Assembly: GCA_023251535.1 (NCBI GenBank)
Contig: JAHEYP010000003.1
Span: 1 to 64,000 of the forward strand
Direction of reading: 5' to 3'
Origin: Bacteroidota bacterium
Lineage (GTDB): Bacteria > Bacteroidota > Bacteroidia > AKYH767-A > OLB10
DNA: 64,000 nt
Below are positions 7,241 through 19,197 of this stretch, one piece after another. The notes beneath the pieces were generated by a model. The model made no database searches, had not been told where the DNA came from, and saw nothing but the letters and a program-made list of their open reading frames with translations. Position 1 is the first letter of the stretch. Each line of letters opens with the position of its first letter. Made by a program: the position numbers and the translations under genes.

Positions 7241-8149
7241 TCAGATTAAAGATTCATTACTATGTATATTGTAATTCGTTAGGTTCCAAATAACACCTTT
7301 ATAAAAGGCTTTAAGCATATCCGTCTTACCTTTCAGTAAATACTGAAGGGTATTCTTTGGTATAGATACGAATGTTAAAAAAAGAAGGCTGACAAAAAGC
7401 GTAATTCCTTTCACATTACGTCTTTGATACAAAATTCTGTTTCTCGTTAAGTAATATGTTTTAAGTGTACTGCCTTTTCCTGTCGCCATTGATTCTTTAT
7501 GATAGATTTTGGACTCTGCTTCATACCAAATGGAGTATCCTGCGTTTTTGATTCGCTCGCAATAGTCCATTTCTTCATAATAGAGGAAGTACAAATCAGC
7601 CATTAAGCCAATTTCTTCAACAACTTTACGTGATACCATCATGGCTGCTCCATGAGCTCTGCTGGTAGGCATTGATTGATCAAAATCTCCATTATCTTGC
7701 TTGCCAAATCCTATGGCATTACCACGAACCGTAAAGGGATTGATGGGTTCAAATCCTGCGAATTGGAGCATTCCTGGTGTATGATGAAAAATTATTTTGG
7801 GTGAAGCAGCTCCTATTTTTGAGTCGCTTTCCATTCGCTGCACAAGAGGTTCTAAAAATCCTTCAGGGACTTCTGTATCATTATTCAGCATTAAGAAATA
7901 TTTCCCTGTAGCTTGTTTAAATCCTAGGTTGTTTCCTCCTGCAAAGCCCAAGTTTTTATCACTCCTGATGAATTTTATCCACGGATGTTTTTCGAAGATG
8001 ATTGATGGGTCTTCTTTTGAAGCATTGTCAACAATGATTACTTCAAAATTGGGGTACGTAATTTTTTTCAGGGAATCCAGCATTTCGCAGGTTACCTGAG
8101 CACCATTGTAGTTAATACTAACTATTGAGACCGATGGATAGTTCGTCAT
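7241..8149 (-). CDS. GT2 glycosyltransferase, rhamnosyltransferase-like
   Basis: The 302-residue product has the fold of WbbL/RfbF-like GT2 enzymes. It begins SIVSINYNGAQVT, has VIIVDNASKED, then NLGFAGGNNLG, and LMLNNDTEVP as the divalent-metal NDT site. The later YYEEMDYCERIKNAGY segment carries the conserved acidic DYCxR acceptor-site region of this family, and RNRILYQRRN lies near the end. The C-terminal part has one hydrophobic stretch (about 255-275) that may associate with the membrane. Its ATG at 8149 lies inside the end of the polymerase gene (32-nt overlap), so translation is probably coupled. Rhamnose is only a family tendency. Confidence 0.9.
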   Translation of the reverse strand: MTNYPSVSIVSINYNGAQVTCEMLDSLKKITYPNFEVIIVDNASKEDPSIIFEKHPWIKFIRSDKNLGFAGGNNLGFKQATGKYFLMLNNDTEVPEGFLEPLVQRMESDSKIGAASPKIIFHHTPGMLQFAGFEPINPFTVRGNAIGFGKQDNGDFDQSMPTSRAHGAAMMVSRKVVEEIGLMADLYFLYYEEMDYCERIKNAGYSIWYEAESKIYHKESMATGKGSTLKTYYLTRNRILYQRRNVKGITLFVSLLFLTFVSIPKNTLQYLLKGKTDMLKAFYKGVIWNLTNYNIHSNESLI

Positions 8150-9596
8150 TGGAGTTTTCCTTACTCCTTTTTAACGAACGTTTTTCAATAAAGTTCTCTG
8201 CTAGAAAAATATATACCATCGACATGTACATTACAGATCCGGTTGGGAACTGACCGAAAATTTGGTTCCCGTAACTAGCAAAGCAAACTCCGAATATTCC
8301 TCCATAAAAGGCCGCCATTTTGAATTTTAGGTCGGTTTCTTTGATCTTGAATATCACGAAGAATCGATTAATAAGGATAAACAGTATTAATGTCAAATAG
8401 AGTGAAAGTCCTACAATACCACTCTCAGCAAATATTTTTACATACCAGCTGTCGAGTGGGGTAGTGGCGAGAAATGTACCCGGACTAAACCTTTGCCCCC
8501 AGGAGCCCGCCGACCCAATTCCTCCTCCAATAGGCCTGGAGGCCATATAAGCTTTTAGTTTCTTCTGATTTTCAAGTCGGGCCATCAACGATGCATCATT
8601 AGGGTCGAGTGCAGTACGCATCCTTCTAATTTGATCGTTTTGTTGTCCGATGGTGGTGTATTTTAGCATTCCAATCACCAATAGACCAATTACGGCTCCG
8701 GGAATTAGAATTTTCATATTATTACTTAATAGTAGGTATGCTGCAAATCCCATAATCGCCACGAATAATGCTCCGCGGGTTCCAGAGATCATCATACCGT
8801 ATAAATTCAATAAGCTGACAACGATGTAGAATATTTTTCTTTTTTTGGAACAAGGACCAATGGCCATAATTCCTGCAACAACTCCAACATGTGCAGTCGC
8901 AGCTCCAAATTGTCCGGCATCTGAATAGAAAGAAAATACACGTAGTTTTCCGAATAAGATGTGCGTTTGTTTAGCACCCATTTCAAGCCATCTGTTTTCT
9001 GCAAAGTCAACACCGATAAATAATTGCTTCATGCCCCAAAGTGCAGCGAATGTTGAAATACAAAACCAAATTTTTATGAAGGTGTCCATATCCTTTTCTT
9101 TACTTAAAAGGATAAATGTTAAAGGCACTGTGGCTATGAAATATAAGGAAACGCCTCTCACTGCATAGAACCATGCTTCAAAACTTCTTGCTTCGGGATT
9201 TACGATTTCAATTACTGTATATCCGAACCAAATAAGTACTGCCCAAGTGAGGGGGTTGTTCGCTGTAGGATTTTCAGGATCATCTTTAGTCCTGAACATA
9301 TAGCCCAATGCAGTAAGCAATAAGATAATATCAACGCCTAATCCGAATGGTCCGTCGATGTATCGAGTAATTCCGTTAGCGAAAAAGCTAAACGCAAGCA
9401 TGGTCCACATTCCGAACTTCGGACTAGCAATAATAGCAGCCACCAATGCAATCGCAAAGGGAAATGCGGCAAATGCAACTATCGTGACAATTCCGCCCTT
9501 TGAAAATGCCTGTCCTAAAACAATTGCAAGCAATACTAGCAGTATGACCTGGTAGATTTGCCTGAAATTGATTTTACGATGAAGTTGAATTTCCAA
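8118..9596 (-). CDS. O-antigen ligase/polymerase family membrane protein (Wzy-like)
   Basis: The 492-residue protein is very hydrophobic, with about ten to twelve predicted membrane helices. A large periplasmic-type loop (about 325-390) contains RMRTALDPNDASLMARLENQ and a GGGIGSAG/PGTFLATTPLDSWYV segment, which resembles the Wzy_C/O-antigen ligase loop with its conserved arginine and small-residue patches. These proteins polymerise or ligate lipid-linked repeat units at the periplasmic face of the inner membrane. Its position next to a Wzx-like flippase and a Wzc-like chain-length protein supports the polymerase role. Its start lies 23 nt inside the flippase gene's 3' end. Polymerase versus ligase cannot be settled from sequence. 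Confidence 0.85.
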   Translation of the reverse strand: MEIQLHRKINFRQIYQVILLVLLAIVLGQAFSKGGIVTIVAFAAFPFAIALVAAIIASPKFGMWTMLAFSFFANGITRYIDGPFGLGVDIILLLTALGYMFRTKDDPENPTANNPLTWAVLIWFGYTVIEIVNPEARSFEAWFYAVRGVSLYFIATVPLTFILLSKEKDMDTFIKIWFCISTFAALWGMKQLFIGVDFAENRWLEMGAKQTHILFGKLRVFSFYSDAGQFGAATAHVGVVAGIMAIGPCSKKRKIFYIVVSLLNLYGMMISGTRGALFVAIMGFAAYLLLSNNMKILIPGAVIGLLVIGMLKYTTIGQQNDQIRRMRTALDPNDASLMARLENQKKLKAYMASRPIGGGIGSAGSWGQRFSPGTFLATTPLDSWYVKIFAESGIVGLSLYLTLILFILINRFFVIFKIKETDLKFKMAAFYGGIFGVCFASYGNQIFGQFPTGSVMYMSMVYIFLAENFIEKRSLKRSKENSNDELSIGLNS

Positions 9597-10935
9597 ATTT
9601 TAGTGACTTAAAACGTTCTTTGATTGGATGCAATATATGCAACGTAGCTTTGAAGCCGGTGACAACCGTTTCTCTTACCGAATGATGTAAATATTTTTTC
9701 AAGAAGAAATTTCCGAAAATAACTCCAGTAATGAAAGTCAAGATGGAAACAGCAGCAACTCCCCAAATATTTCCGATATAATGAATTGCCAATAAATCAC
9801 CGGTAACATTTACCAATAACATTAAAAGTACTTTAATGAAATTCAGATATGGCTTACCAATTATATCGAGAGTGATTCCTGAGAACCTATCAAGTGGTAA
9901 GAATAATGAATACACTGCTAATACTCTTAAAATGACTGCCGATTCGGCGTATTGAGCTCCACCTAAAATTACAACTAATGTATCGGCAAAGATAAAAGTA
10001 CCTACAACTACCGGTATCAATAGAATTGATAGTACACCGGTATATTTATAGTACATAGCTTTTAATTCCACTTTGTGATCCGGGCTAGCATATTTCGACA
10101 TAGCTGGCATTGCAGTAGAAACAAAACTTCTTAGCAATATTTCAATAACTTCAATGAGCTTAAGAGGGATTGCATAAAGCGCCACGTCTCTTGTGGTCAT
10201 CATAAATCCGATAAGTAAAGTATCAGAACTTCTTAATAGGTTAGACCCCATTAATGTACCCATGCTAAATTTGCCGAAATTAAACAGCTCACGCATCATT
10301 TCTTTCGTAGCAAAACGTACAGTTTTTATCATCGACCATCCCGCCCACATAGAAACAGCAGAAGGTAGTAATCCTGAAATTATAAATGAACCTAAAACAA
10401 TCTCGGTCGAATTCTTTTCAAATATTAAAGCTAGAAGTATGCACGTCATGAAGCTTAATTGATTCAAAAGTCGGATATACAAAACCTTCTCGAATTGAGA
10501 GCGAGCTTGCATTAACCAAGCGGCATAATTAAATGGTAAAGTTGTAATTGCAGCAAGCCAATACCATTCCAAGAATAAATTAAATCCGGGATTGGTAATC
10601 ACATGACCAAAGAAAAGGTGAATACTATAGGTTAGTAGAGATAAGAAAATAGTTGTGAAGATTGATATCATCCATCCCGAACCTGAAACAATTCCGAAAT
10701 GCTCTTTTTTAGAAGAAGCTGCAAAGCGAATTAGAGAAGTATGAATGATGCCAGCTCGAAGTAAGTCAGCAAATATGTAGCCTGTTAAAAACATTACCCA
10801 GGCGCCCATCGATTCTTTATCAAGTAAACGTGCTACAAGTGCAATACTTGCAAAACCTAACACGGCATTGGTTAAGTTACCTGCCAAGCTTAGTGTATGG
10901 TTGTTTTTGATAATTCCTTTTAATTTGCTTTTCAT
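9574..10935 (-). CDS. Polysaccharide flippase of the MOP superfamily (Wzx-like)
   Basis: The 453-residue product has about twelve hydrophobic helices. It begins with the typical flippase pattern LAGNLTNAVLGFASIALVARLLDKESMGAWVMF, which matches the N-terminal region of Polysacc_synt (RfbX/Wzx) proteins. Further on it has FGKFSMGTLMGSNLLRSSDTLLIG, the second-bundle repeat of the same motif. It should flip undecaprenyl-linked repeat units across the inner membrane to the polymerase encoded next. The gene follows the Wzc-like gene by 11 nt and overlaps the polymerase gene. The length is normal for the family (about 420-500). Confidence 0.9.
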   Translation of the reverse strand: MKSKLKGIIKNNHTLSLAGNLTNAVLGFASIALVARLLDKESMGAWVMFLTGYIFADLLRAGIIHTSLIRFAASSKKEHFGIVSGSGWMISIFTTIFLSLLTYSIHLFFGHVITNPGFNLFLEWYWLAAITTLPFNYAAWLMQARSQFEKVLYIRLLNQLSFMTCILLALIFEKNSTEIVLGSFIISGLLPSAVSMWAGWSMIKTVRFATKEMMRELFNFGKFSMGTLMGSNLLRSSDTLLIGFMMTTRDVALYAIPLKLIEVIEILLRSFVSTAMPAMSKYASPDHKVELKAMYYKYTGVLSILLIPVVVGTFIFADTLVVILGGAQYAESAVILRVLAVYSLFLPLDRFSGITLDIIGKPYLNFIKVLLMLLVNVTGDLLAIHYIGNIWGVAAVSILTFITGVIFGNFFLKKYLHHSVRETVVTGFKATLHILHPIKERFKSLKFGNSTSS

Positions 10936-10946
10936 AACCCCGTTTT

Positions 10947-13136
10947 TTAGGTGCGTTTGAAATTAAATGTGATAGCACGTTTTATTATTCTTCTTGCCAG
11001 AGATCTGGTTTTGGGAACTTCTCCAATAATAGTTTCTAGTCGGTCGATTTCGATATTATTAAGGGCTACCAAATTTTTGCCTGAAGTAGATTTTGTGAAG
11101 TGTGATAAAGCTCTTGAATCGGCTTCGTTCCACACTCTTTCGCTATCGAGTAGGAGTAGGTTTAAGCATGCTGATGATAATATCCCTTCAGGTAAGTTGT
11201 ATTTATTTAATTCTTTAAGTATCACTATAATCATTCCGTATTGTTTAATGTCGAGATTTTCACTCTCCATCCACGCTTCAATATTTTCGGCAGTGTAAAA
11301 ATTGTCGTTGTCTTTTAATGGGAATTCAGTAATTAATCCGTTCTTCGAAAGTTTTGTTGCCTTCGGATTTAAGAATAAAATTTCTTTATTTCGCTCTGCA
11401 AGTGCAGGGATTATTTTATTCGCAAAGAATTGTTTTCCTTCTTCTTTTCTGATACTGGAAATAGTCGCAATTATTGTCTTCGATTTATTAGTCTCGCATG
11501 AGCGAAGATGTTGTCGAATGGTGCTTGAAAGATGTGACAATAGTGCTTCGTCGAGTTTAGGTACAATAATTCCCTTGTCGAGTGATCTATAGTTTGGCAG
11601 TGCTCCAAGGAAATGTAGTCCTGTGAATTTTTCAGCTCTTCCCGGTGTTTGTACTGTTTTTCCTAAAAGAGATTTAGCAATTATTACCGCTAAGGTTACA
11701 ATGAATACGGCAATGAAAGAAACAGCAACCAGCATTCCTCTTTTTGATGGAAGTGGTTCTAATGGTAGATAAGGAGAATCGGTAATTGTTAAATTATTCG
11801 ACATCTCCAAACTCTGCTGACGTAAACGAGCCATGTTTAATCCGTGGAGAATACTTAAATATTCTTTCTCGTTAACATCCAATTCTCGTTCAAAACGTTT
11901 GATGTCTGAACCGATAGGAGCGAGCTCAGTGTATAATGCATCAAAGCCGTCGAGACGTTTTTGAATTACATCCAACTTGGCTTGATTTTCTTCTACTCCG
12001 ATATAGTTCGTTAACCATTCTTGTAATAAGTTGCCGCGCGGTAATCCTTCAGTTGTATTGTTAAGCTTATATTGCTTTTCTACTTCTTCACGTATAGAAC
12101 GTTTTACGAGTTCGGCATCAGATTTGTACTTGGTTATTTTTGCCGGATCCTCATTATATAGCTCCGTATTGGCAATCTTATAGTTAAGATCACTAAGTTG
12201 ATCTTTAAGTTTCTGGATTTTTTCGTTTACTTCTAATAAACCTTTTTTGAGGTTCATTTTTTTCTCGATCTGAACGAGAGCTGCTTTGGATGCTTGAAGC
12301 GACATTTGTTGCTTCTGCTTATCCATAACTACGTTTTCTTTTGATTCCGCTACGAATTTAGCTTGCTCGTAATAGTTTATAATTTTATTTGCAGAGCTGT
12401 AGTCGCGCAATTTATCTTCTGATTTTCGAAGTCTTCCGGCTGATAAGCGAAGTTGCTCTTCAAAGTATTTTACAACATTGTTGGTTTCGCTTCCTTTAAT
12501 TCCTTTGTATCGTTGAATTACTACATCGACGATAATTTGTAAGGTTTGTTGACATGCAGCAGGATCGTTACACTTGTATGAAATGTCGATCATGTCGGAG
12601 CTTTGTTTTCTTAAAGCCGACATGTTTGAAGAGATTTTATCGAAGCTGTAGATTTCTGATGGCTTCTTTAAAATTTCAATAATTTCGTTTTTCTGATTGC
12701 TTCTTCTATAGCTTTCTATACGGAAATATGTAAGTTCTTCTGATCCTTTAACGATTAGTTTTTTACGCAAAGATTCCGGAATAACTTCTCTCGCATGTTC
12801 GAAGTTAGCCGGTGATAATTGGTCGTAAGAAGGTTTTTCTATTAATAGATGTTTTGCTAATAATCGCATTCCGACTTCCTCAATTGTTTCTCGCGATTTT
12901 ATCGTCGCCATTAAGTTGTCGAAGGCATTGTTTACGGCAAAGTAATCTACACGATCGTTCTCCCCAGATGTGATTCCGTATCCACTGGCAATTCCGGTGT
13001 AAACTTCGCAATCTGAGGTGTATTCTTTAATTGTATTGCGAGTTAAAAAAAAGACAACAAGAGCTGTCATTAATGGAAAGAGTACTAAAACTTTCCAATA
13101 ACGAAGTATTAATCTTATGAATTCTAAAAGGCTCAC
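10947..13136 (-). CDS. Wzc/GumC-like polysaccharide chain-length protein with degenerate kinase domain
   Basis: The 729-residue product has a Wzz-type architecture. TM1 lies at about 15-31, a long periplasmic coiled-coil region at about 210-450, and TM2 at about 468-492 after the proline-rich LPLEPLPSKRG motif. A cytosolic domain of about 230 residues follows, with the layout of a bacterial tyrosine kinase (BY-kinase). However, the Walker A position reads ISSIRKEEGKQFF instead of SSxPGEGKS, Walker A' reads ILFLNPKA without aspartates, and Walker B reads IIVILKE. No tyrosine-rich tail is present. It probably controls export or chain length, but as a kinase it looks dead. Starts and stops overlap the TolC-like gene by 4 nt. 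Confidence 0.85.
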   Translation of the reverse strand: MSLLEFIRLILRYWKVLVLFPLMTALVVFFLTRNTIKEYTSDCEVYTGIASGYGITSGENDRVDYFAVNNAFDNLMATIKSRETIEEVGMRLLAKHLLIEKPSYDQLSPANFEHAREVIPESLRKKLIVKGSEELTYFRIESYRRSNQKNEIIEILKKPSEIYSFDKISSNMSALRKQSSDMIDISYKCNDPAACQQTLQIIVDVVIQRYKGIKGSETNNVVKYFEEQLRLSAGRLRKSEDKLRDYSSANKIINYYEQAKFVAESKENVVMDKQKQQMSLQASKAALVQIEKKMNLKKGLLEVNEKIQKLKDQLSDLNYKIANTELYNEDPAKITKYKSDAELVKRSIREEVEKQYKLNNTTEGLPRGNLLQEWLTNYIGVEENQAKLDVIQKRLDGFDALYTELAPIGSDIKRFERELDVNEKEYLSILHGLNMARLRQQSLEMSNNLTITDSPYLPLEPLPSKRGMLVAVSFIAVFIVTLAVIIAKSLLGKTVQTPGRAEKFTGLHFLGALPNYRSLDKGIIVPKLDEALLSHLSSTIRQHLRSCETNKSKTIIATISSIRKEEGKQFFANKIIPALAERNKEILFLNPKATKLSKNGLITEFPLKDNDNFYTAENIEAWMESENLDIKQYGMIIVILKELNKYNLPEGILSSACLNLLLLDSERVWNEADSRALSHFTKSTSGKNLVALNNIEIDRLETIIGEVPKTRSLARRIIKRAITFNFKRT

Positions 13137-13975
13137 GGTTTTCTCGTCAATTTATCTAATCTTACTCCAACTAATCTTTCTAGTTGCTGATACCAGGTGT
13201 AGAAATCTCTTTTAGCGATTTCATAATCTGATTCAGCTTTTGATGCAAGTCCCAATACTGAAGTATAATCACCAATAGTGATATCTCCTTGTTGAAACTG
13301 TTGATTTGCCATGTCCATTAGCATACGAGCGGCACTTCGCGAATTACTTGCTATAAGTAAAATACGATGTGTCGATAACATGCTATTGTATTCAGCTATT
13401 ACTATACGTTCAAGATCGAGTTTTAGTTTCTCGTTGGTCTCCTTTCTGACTTCTAATTCTTGTTTGTAAATGTTAATTCTGTTATTCCTTGCAAAAAATA
13501 GGTATAATGGAATGTTAACATTCAATCCTAATCGGTATCCAGTGCTTAAACTTTGCGATTGTGTGCCTACTGGCTCTTGGTTCGAATTGTAAAATAAGGT
13601 TTGGTTTCCTACATTTTGATTGTAAGAAAGAAAGACTCCATTTTGCCATTCTCTGCGTCCAAGTTTAACTTGTTCATTACCTGCTATAATTAGTGCTTCT
13701 TGAGCTTTTAATCCGGGATTGTTGTAAACAGTCAATTTTAGGATTGAGTCGAGAGGGACTAATTGATTTAGTAATTCTTTTGTTAAATCAAGTTTTATGT
13801 CTTCTACACCTAACGAGTATAGAGAAGTAGTATCATTAATTGGAGTAATAAAAAGGGATGGTGAGTCCGTAGTTTGTCCTTGACTTATTTTGCTGCTGAA
13901 TACAAATGCGATAAGGCATGCAAACAGAATAAGTCGAGTATGGATTTGCTTTGATTCAAGGTTAAAGGTTTTCAT
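13133..13975 (-). CDS. Short TolC-like outer-membrane efflux family protein
   Basis: The 280-residue product has an N-terminal hydrophobic signal (about 14-33). From about residue 70 it shows the alternating helix pattern of outer-membrane efflux proteins: VYNNPGLKAQEALI, GYRLGLNVNIPLYLF with the beta-barrel-like GLNVNIPL strand, then long helices ending in QLERLVGV. TolC-type proteins normally have two such repeats in over 400 residues; this one has a single unit. It may form part of the outer-membrane route for the polysaccharide, since no Wza-like gene is visible. It overlaps the genes on either side by 4 nt. The family assignment is fairly clear; the export role is inferred from position. 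Confidence 0.72.
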   Translation of the reverse strand: MKTFNLESKQIHTRLILFACLIAFVFSSKISQGQTTDSPSLFITPINDTTSLYSLGVEDIKLDLTKELLNQLVPLDSILKLTVYNNPGLKAQEALIIAGNEQVKLGRREWQNGVFLSYNQNVGNQTLFYNSNQEPVGTQSQSLSTGYRLGLNVNIPLYLFFARNNRINIYKQELEVRKETNEKLKLDLERIVIAEYNSMLSTHRILLIASNSRSAARMLMDMANQQFQQGDITIGDYTSVLGLASKAESDYEIAKRDFYTWYQQLERLVGVRLDKLTRKP

Positions 13976-15108
13976 ACGTTTTCACTCTGCAATAGAGCAG
14001 GGAAGGTCTTCAGGATTATTTTAATATCCAGCCAAAGGGAATGATTTAGCGCGTAGTTGTTATCGAGCGTGATACGTTCTTCTTCCGACATATCTTTCTT
14101 GCCTCGTTTGGTTACTTGCCAAAGTCCGGTTAATCCTGCAGGCGCAAGGAAACGGAAGGCACGTGAATCTGTAGTTAGTTTTTCGGCTTCATAAAGCGGT
14201 AATGGACGATTGCCGACTAACGACATATCTCCTCTTAATATGTTAATTAACTGAGGCAACTCATCGATAGATGAATTACGTAAGAATTTTCCGACACGTG
14301 AAATACGCGGATCATCTTTTGCTTTAAAGAAAATACCTGATTTTTCCAGTTCTTGTAAATAAAAATAGAAGTTTTCACAAACTTGTTTGTTGTCGGCATA
14401 CATGATTGGTGAACATGGTTTGCCTAGTTTTTTACAATCGGGACATTCTTGAGGTATTTCTATGGTTTTATCAGCACCGTATAAATTTAGATGCGTCATG
14501 TTGCCGATTTTTTTATCAGCATCAGGAATCATTGTTCTAAATTTAAGTAGATCAAAAATTTTATAGTTAGATCCTACGCGTTTCGAGCGGTAAAAAATCG
14601 GTCCTTTTGATTCTATTCGAATTGCTAAAGCGGCTCCAATAAGAACAGGAGATGCAATTAGTAAACCAAATGAAGAAATACCTACATCGAGGAGTCTTTT
14701 TGCGATTAAACTTCTTCGTGAATATAAAGAAGAAAGTGAGTTAGTTCCGTGTTTTTGAGAGAATAAATAAACAATTTGAAAAACCGTAGAAGTAACTTTA
14801 GATGTATCTACTACATCTAACAATCCTTCATGAAAGAAATGGTTGTTATTAGTTCTGTCGGGGTTATTAGTATAACCGACAATTATAGTTTTCCTAAATG
14901 TTGTCTTCGAACGAAGTATATGTAATGTATCTACCGTAGGATCGATTGTTGCATCAACTTCCGTTACTAAAATATCGGGAATACAATCGTTTCGCATCCA
15001 TTGATATGCGTGAAACAGATCAGGGAATATTTGAACCTGATGTTTTGGAAATGTGCTTTTAAAAGCTTCCTGCTGAACAGGGTCGTTGTTAATGTAGACA
15101 ATTTTCAT
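13972..15108 (-). CDS. Undecaprenyl-phosphate sugar-1-phosphate transferase with receiver-like N-terminal domain
   Basis: Residues about 130-378 form a bacterial sugar transferase (WcaJ/EpsL type). They comprise RLLDVGISSFGLLIASPVLI (membrane helix), GPIFYRSKRVG, FDLLKFRTM, DDPRISRVGKFLRNSSIDELPQ, SLVGNRPLP and APAGLTGLWQV. It would transfer a sugar-1-phosphate onto the lipid carrier to start each repeat unit. Residues 1-115 look like a receiver domain that has lost its phosphorylation site: IVYINNDP replaces the DD pair, and DILVTEVD carries Glu50 where the phospho-accepting Asp should be. A four-cysteine insert (Cys222, 225, 232, 244) lies inside the catalytic domain. The gene directly follows a stand-alone receiver gene. 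Confidence 0.92.
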   Translation of the reverse strand: MKIVYINNDPVQQEAFKSTFPKHQVQIFPDLFHAYQWMRNDCIPDILVTEVDATIDPTVDTLHILRSKTTFRKTIIVGYTNNPDRTNNNHFFHEGLLDVVDTSKVTSTVFQIVYLFSQKHGTNSLSSLYSRRSLIAKRLLDVGISSFGLLIASPVLIGAALAIRIESKGPIFYRSKRVGSNYKIFDLLKFRTMIPDADKKIGNMTHLNLYGADKTIEIPQECPDCKKLGKPCSPIMYADNKQVCENFYFYLQELEKSGIFFKAKDDPRISRVGKFLRNSSIDELPQLINILRGDMSLVGNRPLPLYEAEKLTTDSRAFRFLAPAGLTGLWQVTKRGKKDMSEEERITLDNNYALNHSLWLDIKIILKTFPALLQSENV

Positions 15109-15132: not shown

Positions 15133-15513
15133 TTATGCCACTTTCAATCTTCTAAATATGGCTTGAATTCTTATTTGTAGTTCTTCTGGGTTGAATGGCT
15201 TCTGTAAATAGTCATCAGCTCCTACTTCAAAAGACTTTATTCTGTCGGAACTTTTTTGCTTACTTGAAAGCATAATTACAGGCACATTCGACATACCATC
15301 TTGCTTTCGAATCGATTCAGTAAGATCGTAACCGTTCAGCATTGGCATATCAATATCTACTAATATCATGTCTGCTTTACTACCTTCTTGAAGCCACGAT
15401 AGTGCTTCATAGCCGTTTTCTTTGGTAATGACTTCATACTCGTCGCCTAGAAAGTTTTCCAGGAGCATACGAATGCTTAATTCGTCGTCTACAACTAATA
15501 TTTTCTTTTTCAT
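15133..15513 (-). CDS. Single-domain response regulator (CheY-like)
   Basis: The 126-residue product is one receiver domain with no output domain. It has KILVVDDE (acidic pocket at 9-11), Asp53 in ILVDIDMP as phospho-acceptor, VIMLSSK for the switch Ser/Thr, and DDYLQKPF with the conserved lysine near 105. It sits 21 nt after the hybrid kinase gene and 24 nt before the priming sugar transferase gene. It therefore probably receives phosphate from the kinase's Hpt domain and acts by protein contact. A partner in polysaccharide synthesis, possibly the receiver-like domain of the sugar transferase, is an inference. Confidence 0.93.
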   Translation of the reverse strand: MKKKILVVDDELSIRMLLENFLGDEYEVITKENGYEALSWLQEGSKADMILVDIDMPMLNGYDLTESIRKQDGMSNVPVIMLSSKQKSSDRIKSFEVGADDYLQKPFNPEELQIRIQAIFRRLKVA

Positions 15514-15534: not shown

Positions 15535-18500
15535 CTACGCAGTTTTTTTCAAATAGTTACTGAGATCGTTATTCAAAATAAATGTGTGCAATTGAGTCAA
15601 TTCATTTACCAAGGTATTGAGTATTGGATTGATTTTCAGGTATCTGGATTTGATCTCGCCTTCCTTTTCTGGATTTAACGCATTATCTTCAATCCACTTC
15701 ATTTGCTCTTCTAAGTACTTGTTTCCCAGCATGTTCATGTTTGGGATAAGTTTGTGGGAATGATGACGAATAGCTTCCGGCTCATACTTTTCGACAGAAT
15801 TTTTTAATGAATCAACCATAACCGGAATGGCCTCGTTTAGCACTGTTACCATCTTTTCAATAAAGCTTGCTTTGCCACGTGAGAAGGCTTTTAGTACTTC
15901 CAAACTGATGGTTGTGAACTCAGGGAATTCACTGTTAATGGTCTCGCTAGCGATGTGTACTGGTTGAACTGTTGAAGGATCTCCTTTTGTTATTTTTTCT
16001 GACAAATAGGGCTCCATTTTATTGAAGAGTTCGTGACCTTCAAATGGTTTGAATATTACAGCATTCATTCCTGCTTTAAGGAATTTCTCTTCGTCACCCT
16101 TCATCGCATTTGCTGTCATGGCAATAATTGGAATTTCACGTGCCGGAGCACTTAAATTGTTCCTTATGTATTCGGTCGCATCAATACCACTCATTTCAGG
16201 CATTTGAATATCCATTAATACGAGATCATATGCTTTCTCTTTCATCAAGTCGACAGCAATTTTCCCGTTTTCGGCTATGTCTACCTGAGCACCCCATTCA
16301 CTTACTAATTCAACAGCAAAAAGTTGATTTACTTTATTGTCTTCTGCGAGGAGAATTCGGCATCCTGTGAGCTTATTTGTAAATGATTGCTCATTAAGAT
16401 TTGAATGTCCAATTTTATCTACTTCTGTCTTTTCAAAATTGATTTCAAAACTGAATACAGATCCTTTACCCATTGCACTAGTAACATTAATATCACTACC
16501 CATTAAGTTGAGTAGATTTTTTACGATTGATAATCCTAATCCTGTGCCGCCATATCTTCTTGAAGTATCGGCATTGGCTTGAGTAAAGCTTTGAAAGATT
16601 TTCTCAAGATACTCTGTCGAAATACCAATTCCTGTATCTGAAATTTCAAATCTTAATCGAATGCTTTCAGGATTTTCCTGTAGTTTTTTTACTGTTAACT
16701 GCACTGTTCCTTCTTCTGTAAACTTAAAAGCATTACCTAGCAAGTTCACCAGAACTTGATTTAGTCGAACTTGATCTCCAACTAAATAAGGATGAAGACT
16801 ATCATCTACATCACATGAAAAATGAATTTTCTTTTTCTGTGCTTCGTGTAAAAAGGTTTGCGTTAAATTGTATATGGCGTTATTGAGATCAAATCCTTGT
16901 TTTAGTATCTCTAGTTTTCCGGCTTGTATTTTACTGAAGTCAAGTATTTCATTGATAATTACGAGCAGGTTTTCGGCCGATTGCTTTACTGAACCTGCAT
17001 ATTGCGACTGTTTCTCATTCAACGAAGTCTTTAATAAGAGATTTGTAAGCCCTACAATTCCATTCATAGGAGTCCGTATTTCATGACTCATATTAGCTAA
17101 AAACAACTCTTTGGTATGAAGAGATTCTTCTGCAATTTTCTTTGCGTATTTTAGTTCCGATTCGATTTTAATACGATCGGAAATGTCTTGAGCGAATCCG
17201 ATAATATAAGGTTCAGAACCTTGCTCTTCTACTTTGTAGTTTTTGTAGAGCATGTAAATTGTTCTTCCTTCTTTATGGCGAAGAATTAATATGCCCTGAG
17301 CTGTTTTAGCTTTTTTGAATACCGAGAGGTATTCATTCTCGAAGTTCTCGTGGTGTTCTTCTTTCATGAAATCAGTGATTGGTCGTCCAATCATTTCTTC
17401 CATCTGATAACCTGTAATTTCGCAGCCCGCAGGATTTATAGTTATTAGATTACCTTGCATGTCATGCGTGCAAATTGAGGCTTGACTATAGTTGATTAAA
17501 TCTCGATTCCTTTTTTCACTCTGAAGAATTCTCTTTTCGTGTTCTTTTCTTTGTGTAATATCGCGCATTACTGATGAGCGGAAAATCGGATTTCCATGTT
17601 CATCTTTGTGGATGATAATTAATTGTAATACTGGAATTTCTAATCCGTTTTTATCGAGTATTGCAGTTTCACCCTTCCAAGCGCCATGTTGCATGGCATA
17701 AGGAATTGCTTTTTTGTTGATGATTATATCAACCCATGCCGGATGGATAGGGTAGAGCGTTTCTTGTTCGTTGATATACCTGATTTCCTTGTACGACTTA
17801 TTGTAATACATAGGATGATTATCTAAATCGTAGTATACTACAAAGTCAGGCGTCTCTTCTAGTATTTTATTGAGTTTAATGTTTTCATATTCAGTCTTTT
17901 TTCGAATTGAAATATCATTCAAAATAAATAGGAATCCTGTAATGTTTTGAAGTGTATCTTTTATTGTAGAAACTGAAAGTAGTACATCAGTTTTTTGCGA
18001 GTTGCCATTGTATATTGTAGTTTCGTATTCGAAGTAACCTTCAACTTTGGCTTTTTTAATTAATTCTTCAGTGCTTGTTTTCGTTTTTGCTGCCGTAAAA
18101 CTTCTTCCTAGATTTAATATATCGCTAATTTTCTTTTTTCGCACAACTTGATGTTCGGTGCATCCGAAAAGTTCTTCAGTTCCTTCATTTATAGTACTGA
18201 CAATACCAATCTCATCTGTTGCAATTATTGCTTGCTTAGCACTGTTCAGTATTGCTTGCTGAAATGCATATGATTTCTTTAGTAGATCCTCATTGTTTAT
18301 CGTTTCGGTAACATCACGAATAGTTCCTGATATTCCTGTTGCGATTCCATGCTGATCTCTAACAAGTTTACCTGATATTTTCGCCCAAATAGTAGCGTTG
18401 CTCGACGTGTTAATCTTTGTGATGATTTTGAATTCTTCAGATTTCGATTTGAGTAATTGCTTGAGTTGTTTTTCAAGGTCTTCACGATCTTTTTCATCAA

Positions 18501-19197
18501 TAAAGTGTGTGAAATTTAATCCTAATGACTCGTATATACTGAATTTAGTGATATCTGTCCAAGCTTTATTAAGGAATATTAGCTCCAATTTGCCGTCAAG
18601 TTGAAACAAAATATCATTGATGGAATTAACTACATTTTTGTATTTGTCTTCACTACGAATGATTTCATCTTCAAATATTTTTCGGGAGGTAATATCAATC
18701 ATAATTGACATATACCTTGATACTTTTCCTCCTTGATCCTTTAAGGGAACAACAGTATTATGAAGCCAAATTGTTTGACCGTAATTATTCTGAATGCTGA
18801 TTTCTCCTTTCCACGTTTGTCCTTTCATTAATTTAGCAGCCGCCGTTTCAAGAAGCTCGTTGTTTGCTGGTGATAGAATTTCATTTAATTTCTTCTTTTT
18901 GATGTCTTTTTCCTGAATTCCTGTTCCTAAGCAAAAGCTTTTGTTTACGTAAGAAATATACCCTGAACGATTAACCACTATAACCATAGCAGTTTCATCA
19001 ATTACATTTCTGAAATTGTTTAGTTCTGTAAATGATTCTTCGGATGTAACTTCTAGAGTATGTTCTAGCGCATTAAATCGTTCGTCAGATTGAACGTAGG
19101 CCTCGTTGACGCTGTCCAAAAAGGATGACAACTCTGGCGAATGGGGGAGGCCAGATGAGAAATATTTCTCTAGTTGTCGTTTTAGTAGTTTATGCAT
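15535..19197 (-). CDS. Soluble five-PAS hybrid histidine kinase with receiver and Hpt domains
   Basis: The 1220-residue protein has no membrane segment, so it should sense signals in the cytosol. Five PAS units run in series from about 60 to 685; each ends with a PAC-type IDITSRK, IRDVTE, NDISIRK, MRDITQRK or AQDISDR segment. HisKA follows with SHEIRTPMNG (phospho-His near 704), then HATPase_c with DTGIGIS and GGTGLGLSIV. A receiver has ILLAEDN and the phospho-Asp near 995 in LVLMDIQMPEM. A C-terminal Hpt domain carries HHSHKLIPN near 1147. This is a complete phosphorelay in one chain. It is the first gene of the polysaccharide operon and is followed by a lone receiver. The signal is unknown. 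Confidence 0.93.
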   Translation of the reverse strand: MHKLLKRQLEKYFSSGLPHSPELSSFLDSVNEAYVQSDERFNALEHTLEVTSEESFTELNNFRNVIDETAMVIVVNRSGYISYVNKSFCLGTGIQEKDIKKKKLNEILSPANNELLETAAAKLMKGQTWKGEISIQNNYGQTIWLHNTVVPLKDQGGKVSRYMSIMIDITSRKIFEDEIIRSEDKYKNVVNSINDILFQLDGKLELIFLNKAWTDITKFSIYESLGLNFTHFIDEKDREDLEKQLKQLLKSKSEEFKIITKINTSSNATIWAKISGKLVRDQHGIATGISGTIRDVTETINNEDLLKKSYAFQQAILNSAKQAIIATDEIGIVSTINEGTEELFGCTEHQVVRKKKISDILNLGRSFTAAKTKTSTEELIKKAKVEGYFEYETTIYNGNSQKTDVLLSVSTIKDTLQNITGFLFILNDISIRKKTEYENIKLNKILEETPDFVVYYDLDNHPMYYNKSYKEIRYINEQETLYPIHPAWVDIIINKKAIPYAMQHGAWKGETAILDKNGLEIPVLQLIIIHKDEHGNPIFRSSVMRDITQRKEHEKRILQSEKRNRDLINYSQASICTHDMQGNLITINPAGCEITGYQMEEMIGRPITDFMKEEHHENFENEYLSVFKKAKTAQGILILRHKEGRTIYMLYKNYKVEEQGSEPYIIGFAQDISDRIKIESELKYAKKIAEESLHTKELFLANMSHEIRTPMNGIVGLTNLLLKTSLNEKQSQYAGSVKQSAENLLVIINEILDFSKIQAGKLEILKQGFDLNNAIYNLTQTFLHEAQKKKIHFSCDVDDSLHPYLVGDQVRLNQVLVNLLGNAFKFTEEGTVQLTVKKLQENPESIRLRFEISDTGIGISTEYLEKIFQSFTQANADTSRRYGGTGLGLSIVKNLLNLMGSDINVTSAMGKGSVFSFEINFEKTEVDKIGHSNLNEQSFTNKLTGCRILLAEDNKVNQLFAVELVSEWGAQVDIAENGKIAVDLMKEKAYDLVLMDIQMPEMSGIDATEYIRNNLSAPAREIPIIAMTANAMKGDEEKFLKAGMNAVIFKPFEGHELFNKMEPYLSEKITKGDPSTVQPVHIASETINSEFPEFTTISLEVLKAFSRGKASFIEKMVTVLNEAIPVMVDSLKNSVEKYEPEAIRHHSHKLIPNMNMLGNKYLEEQMKWIEDNALNPEKEGEIKSRYLKINPILNTLVNELTQLHTFILNNDLSNYLKKTA

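Follow-up and report, generated by a model that had tools for sequence, protein, structure and literature searches.

The reading that we favour for this locus, with a probability of roughly 60%, is a two-gene signalling cassette, in which a lone receiver phosphorylated by a kinase controls a phosphoglycosyl transferase (PGT) at the protein level, and a pseudo-receiver domain of the PGT serves as docking adaptor and/or signal relay. Its computed support comprises the fold of the pseudo-receiver, the loss of its phosphorylation pocket, the intact partner, the conserved adjacency of the two genes and purifying selection. According to the proposed mechanism, the lone receiver would obtain its phosphate from a histidine kinase, in this locus most likely the hybrid kinase of the preceding gene, and would then act, presumably by direct binding, on the PGT that starts a Wzx/Wzy polysaccharide. 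The pseudo-receiver, having lost its own phosphorylation pocket, would dock the phosphorylated partner and/or pass the signal to the catalytic domain. By analogy with EpsW and EpsZ, the effect on the PGT would be activation.

The window, i.e. the whole stretch of 64,000 nucleotides that was analysed, carries the following features at this locus.

15535..19197, minus strand: hybrid histidine kinase with PAS repeats, HisKA, HATPase_c and receiver domains (Pfam) and a tail that is HPt-like by motif only
15133..15513, minus strand: intact lone receiver of 126 aa (Pfam Response_reg), ending 24 bp before the PGT start
13972..15108, minus strand: small monotopic PGT with N-terminal pseudo-receiver, 378 aa, ATG start (Pfam Bac_transf)
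14743..15108, minus strand: predicted pseudo-receiver domain, PGT residues 1-122 (AlphaFold2 model, Foldseek against PDB, HMM against shuffles, key positions)
13975..14700, minus strand: PGT catalytic domain, residues 137-378, including the re-entrant helix and the catalytic DE motif (Pfam, family invariants, solved relatives)
13133..13975, minus strand: outer membrane efflux (OEP) family protein belonging to the operon for polysaccharide export (Pfam OEP, E 2.1e-24)
10947..13136, minus strand: Wzz/GNVR-like chain-length/export protein (Pfam GNVR weak, below cut-off)
9574-10935, minus strand: Wzx-type flippase (Pfam Polysacc_synt_3 and Wzy_C for the 8118..10935 pair)
8118-9596, minus strand: Wzy-type polymerase/ligase (Pfam Polysacc_synt_3 and Wzy_C for the same pair)

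These genes form a tight same-strand row in the order hybrid kinase, lone receiver, PGT, OEP protein, Wzz/GNVR-like protein, flippase and Wzy-type protein, and the OEP gene shares 4 bp with the 3' end of the PGT gene. The locus is a Wzx/Wzy-dependent polysaccharide pathway headed by signalling genes of its own. In roughly half of the relatives' loci the fetched stretch includes an OEP homologue, and for a Wzz/GNVR-like homologue the share is likewise about half. We infer that the hybrid kinase is probably the phosphate source for the lone receiver. Its orthologue stands upstream of the receiver-PGT pair in the three nearest relatives, and in several further lineages kinase genes adjoin the pair or lie near it. 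The tail of the kinase (15535-15900, RHHSHKLIPNMNMLG) resembles an HPt (phosphotransfer) domain by motif, and Pfam gave no match to an HPt domain in this tail.

The catalytic part of the PGT is readily recognized. Pfam Bac_transf spans residues 137-373 (E 8.6e-58), the family invariants include S280-I281-D282-E283-L284-P285-Q286, in which the catalytic D282-E283 is invariant among the homologues, and WbaP and PglC are solved relatives of this domain. With a Bac_transf domain bearing the catalytic Asp-Glu and neither a four-helix bundle nor a DUF before the core, the protein belongs to the small type of monotopic PGTs; because residues 1-122 are taken up by the predicted receiver fold, there is no space for a four-helix bundle ahead of the core. 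The name "WcaJ-type", under which the enzyme had been introduced in the preliminary description, is a loose one, as the protein lacks the large-PGT N-terminus and scores 187 bits against the NCBIfam WcaJ equivalog TIGR03023, whose cut-off is 410.75. It should be further pointed out that an insert in the PGT domain (14370-14460, residues about 220-245) carries CPDCKKLGKPCSPIMYADNKQVC. The four-Cys pattern of this insert occurs in 43/76 homologues and is missing from the Bacteroides/Parabacteroides clade; it may represent a zinc-binding knuckle within the catalytic domain.

Residues 1-136 of the PGT gave no Pfam match, and the fold of the N-terminus was assessed by other means. An HMM built solely from the lone receivers that precede the relatives' PGT genes scored it at 19.3 bits, while the best of 1000 shuffles reached 5.8. 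When a profile of 63 homologous N-termini was compared with solved structures, receivers came up at E 1e-19, and PleD, matched through its second receiver, was one of the best; 36 of the 63 match Pfam Response_reg individually. The AlphaFold2 model (pLDDT 82.5, pTM 0.76) displayed the five-fold strand-helix receiver topology over residues 2-121, mostly at pLDDT above 80, with Glu50 at the end of strand 3. When this model was searched against the PDB by Foldseek, the best 50 matches were all receivers or receiver-containing response regulators. Residues 1-122 are thus predicted to form a real receiver (REC) fold. The receiver pattern had been suggested earlier for residues 1-115 from the letters of the sequence, and the HMM, the model and the structural search bear it out over the slightly longer span.

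Within this fold, the phosphorylation pocket is largely gone. As the key-position alignment revealed, D12/D13, D57, T87 and K109 correspond to N7/N8, E50, T80 and T102 in the pseudo-receiver (residue numbers taken from its sequence), so that the Thr is kept and the switch Lys is lost. Both substitutions noticed at the outset, Glu50 in place of the acceptor Asp and Asn7-Asn8 in place of the acidic pair, were confirmed. With a receiver fold and a replaced acceptor Asp, the domain qualifies as an aspartate-less receiver, and it would not be phosphorylatable in the usual way. None of the aligned pseudo-receivers keeps the full set of five pocket residues. Meanwhile, the domain is maintained by purifying selection, with a dN/dS of about 0.065 against the nearest relative L001, the one usable comparison since synonymous sites were saturated in the other relatives. 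It changes faster than both the lone receiver and the catalytic domain.

The preliminary description went further and regarded Glu50 as a natural phosphomimetic that mimics phospho-Asp and locks the domain in its active state. Glu does occur at the acceptor position in several deep lineages and in 15 aligned pseudo-receivers; however, Tyr takes its place in 11, Asp in 7 and other residues in the remainder, the residue differs between subclades, and switches between Glu and non-Glu number at least five on the tree (for the most divergent members, from Bacteroides/Parabacteroides, this part of the alignment is uncertain). The acidic pair and the switch Lys, which make up the phospho-pocket of normal receivers, are also absent here, and an Asp-to-Glu change by itself often does not suffice, even where the receiver is otherwise intact (PMC4395418). 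According to that paper, Glu is the commonest substitute among Asp-less receivers generally (26%) and often not activating alone. Because the acceptor position varies, changes at least five times on the tree, and carries a residue that is both the commonest Asp-less substitute and often non-activating, a phosphomimetic lock is unsupported, and we consider it extremely improbable. A conserved phosphomimetic role of Glu50 was rejected on the substitution spectrum and the tree changes. The trait common to the pseudo-receivers is pocket loss, not Glu.

It might also be supposed that the pseudo-receiver is a binding site for a small ligand, for instance UMP or a nucleotide sugar, since ligand binding has been reported for the DUF found in large PGTs. 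In WbaP, the nucleotides UMP, UDP and UTP stabilise the DUF, and UMP inhibits the enzyme (PMC10942596); altered pockets are moreover frequent in Asp-less receivers (PMC4395418). Yet no pocket residue is conserved across the pseudo-receiver family, and the predicted fold is that of a receiver, with the large-PGT DUF absent from the best 50 Foldseek matches. A ligand-binding role is therefore very unlikely in our estimate.

The gene preceding the PGT gene presents the opposite picture. It encodes an intact lone receiver, as had been proposed, matching Pfam at E 3.7e-29 with its pocket residues present (key positions D9/D10, D53, S83 and K105). In the relatives, the lone receivers have the acceptor Asp in 65/67 cases and the Ser and the Lys in 67/67 each. 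Hence there is a division of labour, in which the lone receivers retain the pocket residues and no pseudo-receiver has the full set. Two Asp-less lone receivers (L082:2807-3280 and L104:935-1408), both located beside pseudo-receiver PGTs, carry Glu at the acceptor position.

The pairing of the two genes was then examined among relatives that had been gathered without reference to the neighbouring gene and from which duplicates had been removed. Of these, 64 carry the N-terminal domain, and 63 are testable since L020 has no upstream DNA. In 62 of the 63 testable homologues, which are spread across Bacteroidota, the gene immediately upstream encodes a lone receiver and has the same orientation; the gap to the PGT gene has a median of 8 bp (60 measured), and several pairs overlap. 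The adjacency extends over many Bacteroidota families, including Bacteroides, Parabacteroides, Prevotellaceae and Cytophagaceae, as well as a second class-level group. The sole exception, L068 (L068:1498-3865), lacks the lone receiver and is instead preceded directly by a histidine kinase, possibly an alternative wiring. The N-terminal receiver of L068 retains Asp at the acceptor position.

Among small-PGT homologues without the pseudo-receiver, a lone receiver stands upstream in 5/12 (L031, L073, L074, L076 and L081, in each case directly upstream). A kinase-like ORF also lies within the fetched stretch in L074, L076 and L081. The difference from 62/63 gave a Fisher p of 3e-6, uncorrected for relatedness; this value overstates the evidence because related genomes are not independent. 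On the tree, at least five changes are needed for the pseudo-receiver and at least three for the neighbouring receiver, and there are only two supported independent contrasts. The breadth of the adjacency over families and two class-level groups is a better argument than the p value.

Another explanation is that the lone receiver serves an unrelated partner, e.g. a factor in transcription or motility, and lies in the operon for co-expression only. Lone receivers can have distant targets, and the genome to which the window belongs has some 15 receivers that are short and apparently lone. On the other hand, the other genes around the pair vary while the receiver and the PGT stay adjacent across families, and a receiver adjoined none of 24 control PGT loci, which were mostly of the large type and had a short upstream flank of roughly 400 bp. 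In the window's own genome, where receivers are common (67 matches), a receiver adjoins one of the five PGT genes, and the other four have no receiver within several kb. An unrelated partner is thus a doubtful explanation, with a low probability in our judgement.

How the two proteins of the favoured cassette might meet was explored with a tethered co-fold, in which the lone receiver, a 9-residue read-through of the stop codon and the pseudo-receiver formed one chain with partly paired alignment rows. Both domains folded well; their mutual placement was not confident (pTM 0.50, for a 1:1, unphosphorylated arrangement with a short linker and no catalytic domain). The co-folding proposed at the outset thus produced folded domains but no placement, an outcome that weighs neither for nor against contact. 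With the catalytic domain controlled for, the distances of receiver and pseudo-receiver showed a significant partial correlation of 0.45; the other two domain pairs gave 0.41 and 0.43, so this co-variation is significant but not specific. Of the earlier suggestion that the first step of polysaccharide synthesis is regulated through receiver-receiver contact, a probable functional link stands on the 62/63 adjacency, but the contact itself was not demonstrated by the co-fold, and five of the twelve domain-less homologues keep the receiver. Because of these five, the partner receiver may contact the catalytic domain in addition or instead, and the receiver-PGT link may not need the pseudo-receiver at all.

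A rival reading is that the lone receiver regulates the PGT by binding its catalytic domain and that the pseudo-receiver does another job, such as self-association of the PGT or holding the export complex. The retained neighbours of the domain-less homologues and the undocked tethered fold are consistent with such binding, and in the model of EpsW bound to EpsZ, contacts are made with the catalytic domain as well as with the DUF (PMC12802240). The strong association between the presence of the pseudo-receiver and that of the neighbour (62/63 versus 5/12) speaks against it, and we regard it as fairly unlikely.

Receivers commonly pair with receivers. In PleD, a phosphorylated receiver is combined with a non-phosphorylated (degenerate) second receiver that acts as adaptor ahead of a diguanylate cyclase. 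The two PleD receivers are named D1 and D2 (PMC8999164). The cassette shares with PleD the combination of a phosphorylatable receiver, a receiver adaptor that is not phosphorylated and an enzyme behind them, whereas PleD is a single chain with diguanylate cyclase output and the present arrangement consists of two proteins with PGT output. The anatomy of the locus agrees with a PleD-like arrangement divided in this way. Like aspartate-less receiver (ALR) domains, the pseudo-receiver has a receiver fold without the acceptor Asp, but ALR domains mostly keep the switch Lys, which is lost here (PMC4395418); the accessible part of that paper describes no PGT output among them.

In Myxococcus xanthus, phosphorylated EpsW stimulates the initiating PGT EpsZ post-translationally through an apparent direct interaction, modelled as promoting the EpsZ dimer (PMC12802240). 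There, as here, an intact lone receiver is linked to the PGT that initiates a Wzx/Wzy polysaccharide. EpsW is phosphorylated by a kinase, while the receiver of this locus is known by its intact pocket. EpsZ belongs to the large PGTs, contains a four-helix bundle and a DUF, and has no receiver-like domain; the PGT here is not a large PGT lacking the WbaP beta-hairpin, as in the EpsW-EpsZ type, but a small one with its own pseudo-receiver. Unlike the EpsW-EpsZ system, the receiver and PGT genes are adjacent here, and the phylum is Bacteroidota. The survey of O'Toole 2021, as cited in PMC12802240, mentions fusions of small monotopic PGTs to regulatory domains, receivers among them, and the fusion seen here, of a receiver-type domain to the core of a small PGT, is of the same kind. 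Receiver control of a large PGT (published) and receiver fusions to small PGTs (as far as that survey mention goes) are therefore already known. In the literature searched, whose coverage leaves out most subscription journals, no description was found of a Bacteroidota cassette of a live receiver and a dead-receiver PGT.

How bacteria choose the moment at which scarce undecaprenyl phosphate goes into a surface polysaccharide is still to be explained; the myxobacteria provide one recent example of post-translational control by a receiver. With its different structure, the cassette would be a second solution, one met repeatedly in Bacteroidota, gut species included, and it points to a putative conserved switch through which a signal would act directly on the initiation of polysaccharide synthesis. 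Somewhat more tentatively, at a little short of even odds, we propose a phylum-wide split phospho-switch, in which an active receiver and a dedicated pseudo-receiver adaptor on the priming PGT would operate in the manner of PleD's receiver/adaptor pair divided between two proteins, with two-component signals gating the use of undecaprenyl phosphate in Bacteroidota. If this is true, the split switch would gate the use of undecaprenyl phosphate for surface polysaccharide, including in gut Bacteroides and Parabacteroides.
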